Shown here: piece after piece, positions 8,761 through 63,392 of the stretch | Layout: each line of letters begins with the position of its first letter | Position numbering within the stretch: the stretch's first letter is position 1 | Assembly (NCBI RefSeq): GCF_005048225.1 | Contig: NZ_SUNI01000001.1 | Location: forward strand, 558,001-622,000 | Reading direction: 5' to 3' | DNA length: 64,000 bases | Source of the DNA: Paracoccus gahaiensis | Lineage (GTDB): Bacteria > Pseudomonadota > Alphaproteobacteria > Rhodobacterales > Rhodobacteraceae | Position numbers and translations under genes: made by a program | The notes under the pieces: generated by a model | Told to the model about the DNA's origin: nothing | The model's database searches: none | What the model saw: the letters and a program-made list of their open reading frames with translations, nothing else

Positions 8761-8855
<95 letters not shown>

Positions 8856-8915
8856 AGACGAGCGGCCCGATCTCGGTCCGCCAGATGTCCCCACCCCCCC
8901 TTTGTCCGGTCATGA

Positions 8916-36094: not shown

Positions 36095-36877
36095 TCAAAG
36101 CGCGGTCCAGCCGCCATCGACGCTGATCGTCGTGCCGGTGATCTGCGCCGCCGCGTCGCTGCACAGGAACACCGCCGTGTCGCCCAGTTGATCGGTGGTG
36201 GCAAAATCCTTGGAGGGCTGGCGTTCCAGAAGCACCTTCTCGATCACCTCCTCGCGCCCCATGTCGTATTTCGCCATCGTGTCGGGGATCTGGCTTTCCA
36301 CCAGCGGGGTCAGCACATAGCCCGGGCAGATCGCATTGGCGGTGATCGGCTCGCGCGCGGTCTCCAGCCCCGTCACCTTGGTCAGGCCAACGATGCCGTG
36401 CTTGGCCGCGACATAGGCGGACTTGTAGGGGCTGGCCGTCAGCCCGTGGGCCGAGGCGATGTTGATCACCCGCCCCCAGCCCGCCGCCCGCATCATCGGC
36501 AGCGCCACCGCCGTGGTGTGGAAGGCCGAGGACAGGTTGATGGCGATGATCGCATCCCATTTCGCCGCCGGGAAATCAGGGATCGCCGCGACATGCTGGA
36601 TGCCCGCATTGTTGACCAGGATATCGCAGGCGCCGGCCTTTTCGATCAGCGCGCGGCACTGGTCGCCCTTGGACATGTCGGCCTGGATATAGCGGACGGC
36701 GACGCCGTGCTCGGCGGCCATCTTCCCGGCCAGCGCGTGATCCTCGTCCGTGTCGGTGAAGCTGTTCAGGACCACGTCGGCCCCCGCCCGGGCCAGACGC
36801 TCGGCCACGCCCAGACCGATCCCGGAATTGGATCCGGTCACCACGGCGGTCTTGCCCTTCAGGAATTTCTCGAACAT
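36095..36877 (-). CDS. bdhA: 3-hydroxybutyrate dehydrogenase (SDR family)
   Basis: A 260-residue short-chain dehydrogenase that oxidises D-3-hydroxybutyrate to acetoacetate, the exit step of PHB use. Cofactor motif TGSNSGIGLGVAERLA (residues about 14-29), NNAGIQHVAAIPDFP with the family-specific GIQHV, catalytic Ser in NIASAHGLTASPYKSAY, and YVAAKHG giving Tyr-x3-Lys. The Gln and His substrate ligands of D-HBDH are kept (GIQHVA). The start at 36877 follows GGAGCAGCC; the open frame upstream is not coding. A candidate small RNA lies 66 bases upstream on the same strand. Confidence 0.93.
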   Translation of the reverse strand: MFEKFLKGKTAVVTGSNSGIGLGVAERLARAGADVVLNSFTDTDEDHALAGKMAAEHGVAVRYIQADMSKGDQCRALIEKAGACDILVNNAGIQHVAAIPDFPAAKWDAIIAINLSSAFHTTAVALPMMRAAGWGRVINIASAHGLTASPYKSAYVAAKHGIVGLTKVTGLETAREPITANAICPGYVLTPLVESQIPDTMAKYDMGREEVIEKVLLERQPSKDFATTDQLGDTAVFLCSDAAAQITGTTISVDGGWTAL

Positions 36878-36942: not shown

Positions 36943-36972
36943 AAAAAAAAGGCGCCCGCACAAGGCGGGCGC
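36943..36972 (-). terminator. intrinsic terminator of the small RNA candidate
   Basis: On the minus strand GCGCCCGC and GCGGGCGC form a perfect 8-bp stem with loop CTTGT (36965-36972 with 36952-36959), followed by C and eight Ts (36950-36943). This is the best-formed rho-independent terminator in the window and is strand-specific. Confidence 0.8.
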
Positions 36973-37018
36973 AAGTCATGAGGCAGGTTTCATACAGGCA
37001 AGAAACCTATCGAGCAGT
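36943..37018 (-). ncRNA. candidate small RNA (or terminated leader) upstream of bdhA
   Basis: An isolated transcription unit on the minus strand. A near-consensus promoter at 37025-37053 would start at about 37018, and an intrinsic terminator with eight Us ends at 36943, giving about 76 nt. The RNA folds into two stem-loops: AGGTTTC with GAAACCT (36985-37008, loop of ten) and the 8-bp terminator stem. The only reading frame is MKPAS (36993-36976), without a ribosome site. No annotated gene is served by this terminator. It may be a trans-acting small RNA or an attenuated leader for bdhA, whose start lies 66 bases on. Ends are estimates. Confidence 0.5.
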
Positions 37019-37024
37019 GTCCTG

Positions 37025-37053
37025 TTTATACGCGAGGAAACGCGCGAGTCCAA
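37025..37053 (-). promoter_or_regulatory. strong sigma-70-type promoter of the small RNA candidate
   Basis: TTGGAC (37053-37048) and TATAAA (37030-37025) separated by exactly 17 bases, the closest match to consensus among the sites I found. It points toward bdhA and diverges from the promoter at 37074-37103. Confidence 0.6.
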
Positions 37054-37073
37054 CAGCGATCTTCCAGCATCGG

Positions 37074-37137: not shown

Positions 37138-38994
37138 ATGCGAATCTTTGAAAAGCTGAACAATCACGCGCTCAAAGGGCTTGTCGCAGGTCTGGGGGTC
37201 GTGGCAGGCGGTGTTGCAGCAATGCCTCTGGCAAGCCTTGCCGCGCCGGCCCATGGCATTGCAATCTATGGAGAACCTGCCCTGCCACAGGGATTCGCGC
37301 ATCTTCCCTATGCCAATCCCGAGGCGCCGCAGGGCGGCATGATTCGCCTGGCCGAACCGGGGGGATTCGACAGCCTCAAGCCATGGGTTCTCAAGGGAAA
37401 TGCGGCTTGGGGCGTGGGCGTGCATGTCACCGAATCACTGATGATGCGGTCCATCGACGAACCCTTCACCCTTTATGGCCTGCTGGCCGAGACGGTCGAG
37501 GTGGCCCCGGACCGGACCTGGGTCGAGTTCATCCTGCGCCCCGAGGCGCGGTTTTCCGATGGCAGCCCGGTCACCGTCGAAGATGTGATCTGGTCCTACG
37601 AGACGCTCGGGACCCAAGGGCATCCCCGCTATCACAGCGCTTGGTCCAAGGTCGCCCGGATCGCGCCCGTGGGCGATCACGGCGTCCGCCTGACCTTCAC
37701 CGAGGCCGACCGGGAATTGCCCCTGCTGATGGGCCTGCGCCCCGTCCTGAAGAAGGCGCAATGGGAGGGGCATGATTTCGGCGCATCCGGGCTGGAGCCG
37801 CCGATCGGCAGCGGCGCCTATGTCATCGACCGGGTCGATCCGGGCCGCGCGATCAGCTTTCGCCGCAATCCCGACTATTGGGGCCGCGACCTGCCCCTGA
37901 TGGCCGGGGTGAACAATTTCGACATGATCCGCTATGATTACTTCGGCGATGCAAATGCCATGTTCGAGGCCTTCAAGGCCGGCGAGGTCACCGTCTGGCG
38001 CGAATTGTCGGCGCAGAACTGGGCGACCGAGTACGACTTCCCCCTGGTCACGCGCGGCGAGGTGGTCACGTCCGAGATCCCGAACGAACGGCCCTCGGGG
38101 ATCGTCGGGCTGGCCATGAACACCCGCAACCCGATCTTTGCCGATTGGCGCGTGCGTCAGGCGATGATCGAGATGTTCAATTTCCGCTTCATCAACCAGA
38201 CCCTGAACGGCGGGGCCGATCCGCGCATCACCTCGTATTTCTCGAACTCGATCCTCGGCATGGATCACGACCCCGCCACGGGCCCGGTGGCCGCGCTGCT
38301 GGAGCCTCATGCCGCCAGCCTGCCCCCCGGCGCGCTGGAGGGCTATGCCCTGCCCGAAGGGTCCGACCGCGCGATGGACCGCGCCGGCATCCGCCGCGCG
38401 ATGGCGCTGATGGCCGAGGCGGGATGGACCATCCAGGACGGCCAGCTGCGCGACGGCGACGGCCAGCCCTTCGCCTTCGAGATCCTGCTGAACCAGAACG
38501 GCACCGCCATGCGCAGCGGGTCCGAGGTTCGCCAGATCGTGAACATCTATGTCGAGGCGCTGCGGCCCCTGGGCATCACCCCGCAGGTGACGCTGACCGA
38601 TGCCGCGCAATATGTGGAACGTACCAACAACTACCAGTTCGACATGACCTGGTACGAACGCGGGCTGTCGCTGTCGCCGGGCACCGAGCAGCGGCTGTAT
38701 TGGGGCCGCGACGGGGTCACGACGCCCGGCAGCCGCAACTGGATGGGCATGGACAGCCCCGCCGCCGAGGCGATGATCGACGCAATGGTCGGATCCGAGA
38801 CCGCCGAAGAGTTCACCGCCGCGGTCCAGGCGCTGGACCGGGTGCTGATGGCGGGGCGCTACGTGATCCCGGTCAGCTTTTCGCCGGTGTCGCGGCTGGC
38901 ACATGCCGCCGATCTGGCATATCCCGACACGATTCCCATTTACGGAGACTGGCCGGGCTTTCTGCCCGAAGTCTGGTGGCAGGAGACGAACTGA
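37138..38994 (+). CDS. ABC transporter periplasmic peptide-binding protein, YejA-like
   Basis: A 618-residue extracellular solute-binding protein of family 5. The signal peptide extends to about residue 36 (hydrophobic core LVAGLGVVAGGVAAMPLASL). The mature start HGIAIYGEPALPQGFAHLPY, the line PYANPEAPQGG, and long C-terminal domain with NRNPDYWG-type element (FRRNPDYWGRDLP near residue 240) are typical of YejA/microcin C-type peptide binders. No permease or ATPase gene follows; two very small genes do, overlapping or abutting it. The transporter core must be encoded elsewhere. Confidence 0.9.
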   Translation: MRIFEKLNNHALKGLVAGLGVVAGGVAAMPLASLAAPAHGIAIYGEPALPQGFAHLPYANPEAPQGGMIRLAEPGGFDSLKPWVLKGNAAWGVGVHVTESLMMRSIDEPFTLYGLLAETVEVAPDRTWVEFILRPEARFSDGSPVTVEDVIWSYETLGTQGHPRYHSAWSKVARIAPVGDHGVRLTFTEADRELPLLMGLRPVLKKAQWEGHDFGASGLEPPIGSGAYVIDRVDPGRAISFRRNPDYWGRDLPLMAGVNNFDMIRYDYFGDANAMFEAFKAGEVTVWRELSAQNWATEYDFPLVTRGEVVTSEIPNERPSGIVGLAMNTRNPIFADWRVRQAMIEMFNFRFINQTLNGGADPRITSYFSNSILGMDHDPATGPVAALLEPHAASLPPGALEGYALPEGSDRAMDRAGIRRAMALMAEAGWTIQDGQLRDGDGQPFAFEILLNQNGTAMRSGSEVRQIVNIYVEALRPLGITPQVTLTDAAQYVERTNNYQFDMTWYERGLSLSPGTEQRLYWGRDGVTTPGSRNWMGMDSPAAEAMIDAMVGSETAEEFTAAVQALDRVLMAGRYVIPVSFSPVSRLAHAADLAYPDTIPIYGDWPGFLPEVWWQETN

Positions 38995-62488: not shown

Positions 62489-63392
62489 CACTCATTGGGC
62501 TCCACCCGTCGAGACGTGTTTCCTTCCGGCGAGGCCGCTGCCTTCCGGGCCGATTACGGCGCGGTTCGACAGTCGGCGGCACAGCATCGGCCTTCCACTT
62601 CATGACAAGCTCCCGCCGGCGCATTCGGCCCATACCTGCCGGTCGGCGGCTGCAACATACTGCAATGCAGCTTCGCCAAACCGGACACCAAGAGCTGGCG
62701 CAGCAAGCCCTATCGGGCAGCGTTTCCGTCGCAGTAGGAAGCTACCACTGCCGGAATTATAACGGTGTTCAATCGGCTTCCCAACTTCCACGAGAGCTGC
62801 CTCCTGTCTTTGCGATGTGAGCCAAGATCGACATGGCGGCGAATCGGCGGACAAAAGTCGCTTAGGCGCCCCGCACTTAGCGGTCGATGGGCATGCCCCG
62901 CATAAACAGCCATTTTCGGTTTGGACGGCGGACTGTCTTATTTTTTCGCACACATCGTGCCGATTGGTGGCCGCTGTCGGGGGCACCTGCAGCCGCTCTG
63001 ACAAATTACCGGTCTTTTGTGAACGATTTCAGGTTTGAAGCTGGGTGCTCAGCCGCTATACGACGCTGCCTTTGCAGGGGCACCCTTTTCACCAAGGCGG
63101 GCAAAAACACCTGATTTCCGTTGCCCATATTCGAACGCGTCTGGCAGATTGAGGGGGCGAGTAGAAGCGGTCGGGGGTCAGCCCTTGGACATTGCTCGAA
63201 CAAAAACCCTCGATGCGAGGACATGATGTTCGCAACCCGCACTGAACCCGACCATGCGACCCACCGTTGCCTGCCCTGCCTGCGCAGCAATAATCCGCAA
63301 AAGCGCGCCTGCGCGCTGCGGCACATGACCGCCGACCGGCAGGCCGAGGCACCCGTGGCCTTCCCCACCCCCCAATCGACAGGACCCCGCGC
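62489..63392. other. 904-base lower-GC stretch without a convincing gene
   Basis: Stop-to-stop frames here reach at most about 134 codons (62600-63004, minus strand), with no ribosome site, no family resemblance and codon use unlike the flanking genes. AT-rich islands occur around 62930-62950 (TCTTATTTTTT) and 63205. I searched for a copy of the tRNA-Gln 3' end that would mark attR and found none. The stretch reads as decayed or regulatory DNA downstream of the integrase. Confidence 0.5.

Follow-up and report, generated by a model that had tools for sequence, protein, structure and literature searches.

A minus-strand small RNA gene of Paracoccus gahaiensis, very probably an ortholog of StsR, and its predicted pairing with the mraZ leader

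A small RNA gene lies on the minus strand of the 64-kb window (the whole stretch of DNA that was analysed), between a 3-hydroxybutyrate dehydrogenase gene (bdhA) and a divergent gene for a YejA-like solute-binding protein. We propose, with a probability of about 0.9, that it is the Paracoccus ortholog of StsR, acting in trans from its own promoter and terminator and pairing with the mraZ leader and with UpsM, the terminated form of that leader. StsR is already known in R. sphaeroides; added here are the invariance of the RNA throughout the family, the conservation of its target and a possible second contact. An RNA known from one species would become a near-universal regulator of a bacterial family that is very common in sea and soil, and its predicted target in the mraZ leader is conserved over the same range as the RNA itself. 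The features of the locus are as follows.

37048..37053, minus strand: −35 element TTGGAC, from the sequence; mean information 1.64 bits (31 same-genus loci) and 1.65 bits (37 loci of other genera)
37025..37030, minus strand: −10 element TATAAA, from the sequence, with a 17-nt spacer to the −35 element
36943..37019, minus strand: small RNA (probable StsR ortholog), about 75–77 nt, predicted 5′ end 37019/37018
36979..37018, minus strand: 40-nt invariant block, exact in 71/71 loci checked and in all 16 aligned sequences
37011..37017, minus strand: CUGCUCG, complementary to CGAGCAG of the mraZ leader and a candidate for a second contact
36985..37008, minus strand: hairpin AGGUUUC-(UUGCCUGUAU)-GAAACCU, 7 bp with a 10-nt loop, from single and consensus fold predictions
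36989..37001, minus strand: predicted seed UUGCCUGUAUGAA, perfect 13-nt complement of the own-genome mraZ leader
36952..36972, minus strand: intrinsic terminator stem-loop, 8 bp, all GC, from terminator scans
36943..36950, minus strand: terminator U-tract of 8 U, from the sequence, with one C between stem and tract
36095..36877, minus strand: bdhA, 3-hydroxybutyrate dehydrogenase, downstream context gene (TIGR01963, 353.4 bits, cut-off 307)
37138..38994, plus strand: YejA-like solute-binding protein gene, divergent context neighbor (PF00496, 209.6 bits)

From its 5′ end the RNA consists of an 11-nt tail, the 7-bp hairpin, a short linker, the 8-bp terminator stem and eight Us, and both hairpins are present in the minimum-energy fold (z −2.13; 4 of 200 shuffles fold equally well). 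The preliminary description of this locus saw a self-contained small RNA candidate, in which promoter and terminator enclose about 76 nt with a further 7-bp hairpin, and we arrive at the same view, with the gene on the minus strand (37053–36943); from sequence and conservation we infer that the RNA has a promoter and a terminator of its own, at which its transcription begins and ends. No convincing small ORF overlaps the RNA. The terminator had been described as the best intrinsic terminator of the window and as one that ends no gene, and both statements hold. It is the only site in scans of the whole 64 kb that joins an 8-pair, all-GC stem to a run of eight Ts (other terminator-like sites include some with 9-pair stems, but with poor T-runs), and bdhA starts downstream of it at 36877, with the yejA-like gene diverging from 37138.

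The promoter requires a more guarded wording. The term 'near-consensus' overstates it as a sigma-70 promoter, since TTGGAC agrees at 3/6 positions and TATAAA at 5/6, and a sigma-70 consensus scan of the window does not flag it; the two stretches are conserved all the same. Mean information in the −10 stretch is 1.76 bits in the genus (31 loci) and 1.42 in other genera (37 loci), the corresponding values being 1.17 and 0.38 bits for the spacer and 0.83 and 0.39 bits for the DNA 60–118 nt upstream, and most loci of other genera have CTTGG as the −35 element instead of TTGGAC. TTG and TAT cores, as in the RpoH consensus of a figure legend of PMC10673084, are present but are not specific to RpoH and fit other sigma factors too. 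At most other-genera loci, CAAACTTTTA adjoins the CTTGG element on its upstream side (37054–37068 in register); this stretch has 1.47 bits in other genera versus 0.73 in the own genus, and may be an activator site or a part of the promoter.

A blast-type search with the promoter and RNA gives one match each in 100 of 101 genus genomes. The nearest records that carry a name are four Paracoccus entries of a plasmid collection, with 91.5–92.6% identity over 82% of the query. With the 67-nt RNA body as the query, the same type of search finds a match in 289/295 family genomes, a sample from 294 genera with nearly one genome per genus; for genomes of good quality the count is 258/260, and two of the six genomes without a match are of good quality. 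A class-wide draw of 289 genomes returns four matches, all of them in family members, the own genome included. The 71 loci with an exact 40-nt block (ACTGCTC...GCCTCA) are mostly best-scoring matches, a selection that somewhat favors its invariance; among them are nine taken from the class draw or from a listing of weaker matches, and three that belong to the Cereibacter group. Over 31 loci of the genus and 37 of other genera, positions within the block have an information content of 1.98 out of 2 bits. All seven pairs of the first hairpin are unvarying in the 16 aligned sequences, and covariation is thus mute on pairing there, whereas three of the eight pairs of the terminator stem change on both sides with 100% of cells staying paired. 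A covariance model (R1) gives 100.5 bits at the window site, the window sequence being one of the 16 from which it was built, and since the RNA reaches no gathering score in Rfam, Rfam-based annotation would miss it. Partial look-alikes of the StsR core at three further loci (L111, L118 and L156) score 14.3, 13.2 and 19.5 bits with R1, and are possibly decayed paralogs or chance.

Complementarity points to a target: very probably the RNA base-pairs near the beginning of the messenger of the dcw cell-division cluster, of which mraZ is the first gene. In 40 of the 47 genomes examined, a total made up of two sets of genomes with one genome shared, a sequence 147–270 nt upstream of mraZ complements the loop and 3′ arm of the RNA. 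The first comprises 40 of the 295 genomes searched (the own genome, 30 whose first match was obtained as a locus, and nine more listed; seven further listed genomes, G140, G280, G232, G223, G213, G356 and G342, were passed over), and an exact copy of the 11-mer TTCATACAGGC lies 147–270 nt before mraZ in 33 of these 40 genomes with fetched places, being missing near mraZ in G162, G219, G241, G245, G271, G293 and G250 (two places were not fetched in the last of these). In the second set, all eight genomes checked through the MraZ family have the 11-mer, 163–231 nt before mraZ. The 4.18-Mb own genome contains it at two places, once within the RNA gene and once ahead of mraZ at a distance of 207 nt, with zero occurrences of the reversed pattern used as a control. 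The longest perfect complement in the own mraZ leader is 13 contiguous nt, a length reached by none of 2000 dinucleotide shuffles of the leader, as against 17 of 18 positions in G150, where the leader contains GCAGGCTTCATACAGGCA. Duplex energy (RNAduplex) is a poor discriminator here, with 20 of 393 random windows pairing as well or better in the own genome.

The published account of R. sphaeroides gives a 268-nt mraZ leader, a terminated form of it that is the 206-nt sRNA UpsM, and a 130-nt fragment made from UpsM by RNase E (PMC5089854). If the G150 leader likewise starts 268 nt before mraZ, the complementary 11-mer corresponds to its nt 60–70, and UpsM would be cut near nt 76 if the 130-nt fragment is the 3′ part. 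UpsM is the predicted partner and not this RNA: it is encoded elsewhere in the own genome (G000, contig C4), where the site, the CGAGCAG block and an UpsM-like terminator stem are present in the mraZ leader. No second conserved 5′-leader target of the 11-mer is seen among 58 other places fetched from 40 of the 295 genomes; each of the 58 falls, on either strand, within a stop-to-stop frame of 131 codons or more, and some of them are one sequence shared by several genomes. Most of the 40 leaders have a block close to CGAGCAGACATCCCCCCAGGTG in their UpsM hairpin, its 7-mers occurring in at least 25 of them, and the conservation of this block is unexplained by the main StsR site.

In R. sphaeroides, StsR is a 72-nt RNA controlled by RpoHI/RpoHII; it binds both UpsM and the dcw leader, and by opening a double-stranded region it promotes the RNase E cut of UpsM (PMC8307010). 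Because the mraZ leader gives rise in R. sphaeroides to UpsM, the target of StsR, we identify the window feature as a very probable StsR ortholog, on the basis of its size, its predicted target and its presence in Cereibacter, the comparison being with the published description of StsR and not with its letters. The statement that no described RNA has this sequence is therefore very probably wrong, StsR (RSs0827) of R. sphaeroides being the best explanation. The likeness includes the size, the free-standing gene, the complementarity to the UpsM/dcw 5′ leader and an identical hairpin in three genomes of the R. sphaeroides group (Cereibacter johrii, C. ovatus and Luteovulum (Cereibacter) azotoformans; R. 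sphaeroides itself is not among the loci returned), while the sequences of terminator and linker vary among genera. A bdhA-like gene is downstream in all three of these Cereibacter-group loci, and a yejA-like gene is beside the RNA in the two tested. Counted from CACTGC, 72 nt of the C. johrii copy (L295) reach as far as the third T of its T-run, and the window RNA has 75–77 nt to the end of the U-tract of its intrinsic terminator, by predicted ends. G150 carries the only SorY above the Rfam cut-off in the 295 family genomes and is for that reason taken to be a member of the R. sphaeroides group; a ChrR-type Pfam family has matches in 5/8 genomes and none in G150, G000 or G112, so that it is SorY that places G150 close to R. 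sphaeroides. Among the papers listed on StsR, RSs0827 and UpsM, no title or abstract opening names a Paracoccus StsR (other papers may report homologs), and the mentions of StsR in excerpts of one review concern R. sphaeroides only. A catalogue of 167 sRNAs in P. denitrificans includes 'intergenic 134' (84 nt) and 'intergenic 60' (80 nt), both conserved in Rhodobacteraceae (PMC5107571); these could be counterparts of the RNA, and expression of one may thus already be published.

StsR of R. sphaeroides, as its published description has it, alters expression of the dcw cell-division genes, and its synthesis in stress and stationary phase depends on RpoHI/RpoHII; the same circuit, from StsR through the RNase E cut of UpsM to dcw expression, probably operates here too. 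The hairpin would present its loop, and loop and 3′ arm would pair with a AUACAGGC-type site in the long mraZ 5′ leader, whose terminated form would be the sRNA UpsM; it is the conserved complementarity that suggests this pairing. Co-folding suggests that in most relatives pairing would make a neighboring CUUUCAUC-like segment accessible to cleavage, and that it would do so only weakly in the own genome. The 12 nt beside the site, often CUUUCAUC-like, open by a mean of +0.31 in 21 leaders (more than 0.1 in 18 of them), the mean with shuffled sRNA being +0.09. Other leader windows change as much in 6% of cases on average, in 17% in the own genome and in 68% in G351, a genome in which co-folding gives no effect of pairing on the openness of the segment; in the own genome the openness of the proposed cleavage segment goes from 0.33 to 0.41. 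The predicted opening agrees with the published mechanism of StsR.

The 40-nt invariance exceeds what pairing with UpsM explains, which raises the question of further partners, and pairing at the main site does not involve the invariant 5′ tail. CGAGCAG is found in 31 of the 40 main-site leaders compared, usually 31–41 nt after the main site, and the order of CUGCUCG and CGAGCAG suits a single collinear interaction that includes this site. In two predicted folds, CGAGCAG falls for the most part within a one-sided bulge of a long hairpin. Co-folding gives the CUGCUCG contact a value of 0.10 or less, but contact with a closed hairpin is a pseudoknot, which this method is unable to score. When the 5′ segment is shuffled, 441 of 20000 versions also have a match among the conserved 7-mers of the leaders. 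The complementarity of CUGCUCG and CGAGCAG is no more than suggestive of a second contact. A wider picture, in which a two-point grip on the mraZ leader, the second point being CUGCUCG on the bulged CGAGCAG of the long UpsM hairpin that comes next, straddles the RNase E stretch and a leaky bdhA leader is added, with a single promoter coupling cell division to the use of storage carbon, is speculative and in our opinion doubtful.

Two readings of the locus were originally offered, a trans-acting small RNA or a terminated leader of bdhA that links PHB/ketone use to some signal. The former is supported by the free-standing gene, the family-wide invariance and the conserved complementary site in another transcript; for the latter, position is the one positive argument. 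As an attenuated leader, the hairpin and terminator would set the level of read-through and the short RNA would be the aborted product. The presence of bdhA downstream, with the orientation of the RNA, in 61 of 68 loci is consistent with this (the yejA-like gene is found in 67/68; six of the seven bdhA misses are absences from the stretch examined and the other, L041, is a contig end), as is the distance from U-tract to bdhA start codon, which is 65 nt in the window, ranges from 21 to 1274 nt with a median of 107 over 64 loci (three Cereibacter-group loci included), and is below 80 nt in 17 of these, leaving little room for a separate promoter, and below 50 nt in two. With bdhA usually kept next to the RNA and so short a gap in 17/64 loci, read-through transcription into bdhA is possible. 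However, the 40-nt block is exact where bdhA is displaced by 0.67 kb (L057) or 1.27 kb (L039) and where it is not found in the stretch, neither single nor consensus folding gives an alternative antiterminator structure, no Rfam riboswitch matches at the RNA, and the conserved complementarity sits in another operon, so that we regard the leader reading as unlikely.

Even less probable is that the RNA is a different conserved sRNA with the same UpsM target as StsR. It is in keeping with this that the match to StsR depends on a published description and not on its letters, and that the published pairing with rpoE (starting 10 nt after the GTG) is not reproduced in three Cereibacter-group rpoE genes, in which the best ungapped matches lie elsewhere and gapped duplexes with the RNA are non-specific; yet it requires that the R. 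sphaeroides group contain a second sRNA of similar size with a near-perfect match to UpsM. Membership in the alphaR8/MmgR family (RF00519, suhB), with a role in controlling PHB granules, is very improbable and largely refuted. These are likewise short alphaproteobacterial sRNAs, and their layout of a 5′ part, GACTT and a strong terminator is similar, with scores of 21.4 bits here, 24.5 and 25.8 bits in two relatives and, for the StsR locus of one genus genome (G020), 30.6 bits (E 3.2e-4). Every one of these is under the 41-bit gathering cut-off, however, and RF00519 finds no match in the own genome at E 0.001. The 10-mer UUUCCUCCCU, which we take to define the family, is present in 4/4 alphaR8 loci and absent from the window sequence. 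Conversely, R1 lists one of the four alphaR8 loci, at 15.9 bits. PMC12559287 reports that MmgR acts on PHB and mentions a 'characteristic 10-mer'. An StsR ortholog acting in trans is the reading that we retain.

Matches of the RNA to RyhB, Hrs13, asX2 and other Rfam families are below threshold, and we infer that they reflect resemblance among terminators. SorY (RF02651) is, like StsR, a Rhodobacteraceae sRNA of similar size, and R1 gives 15.1–19.2 bits to 6/6 SorY loci; the window site, in contrast, reaches 23.7 bits with the SorY model against a cut-off of 111, and StsR 100.5 bits with R1. SorY itself is matched at E 0.001 or better in 279/295 family genomes, with two matches in the own genome, and in 0/14 controls, and may also be family-wide, although a part of these matches may be shared terminator likeness, as R1 touches all six SorY loci. 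Elsewhere in the window, two riboswitches score above their Rfam cut-offs on the plus strand: a TPP riboswitch at 8762–8863 (73 bits, cut-off 54.3) and a Xanthine (NMT1) riboswitch at 63154–63202 (41.8 bits, cut-off 36).
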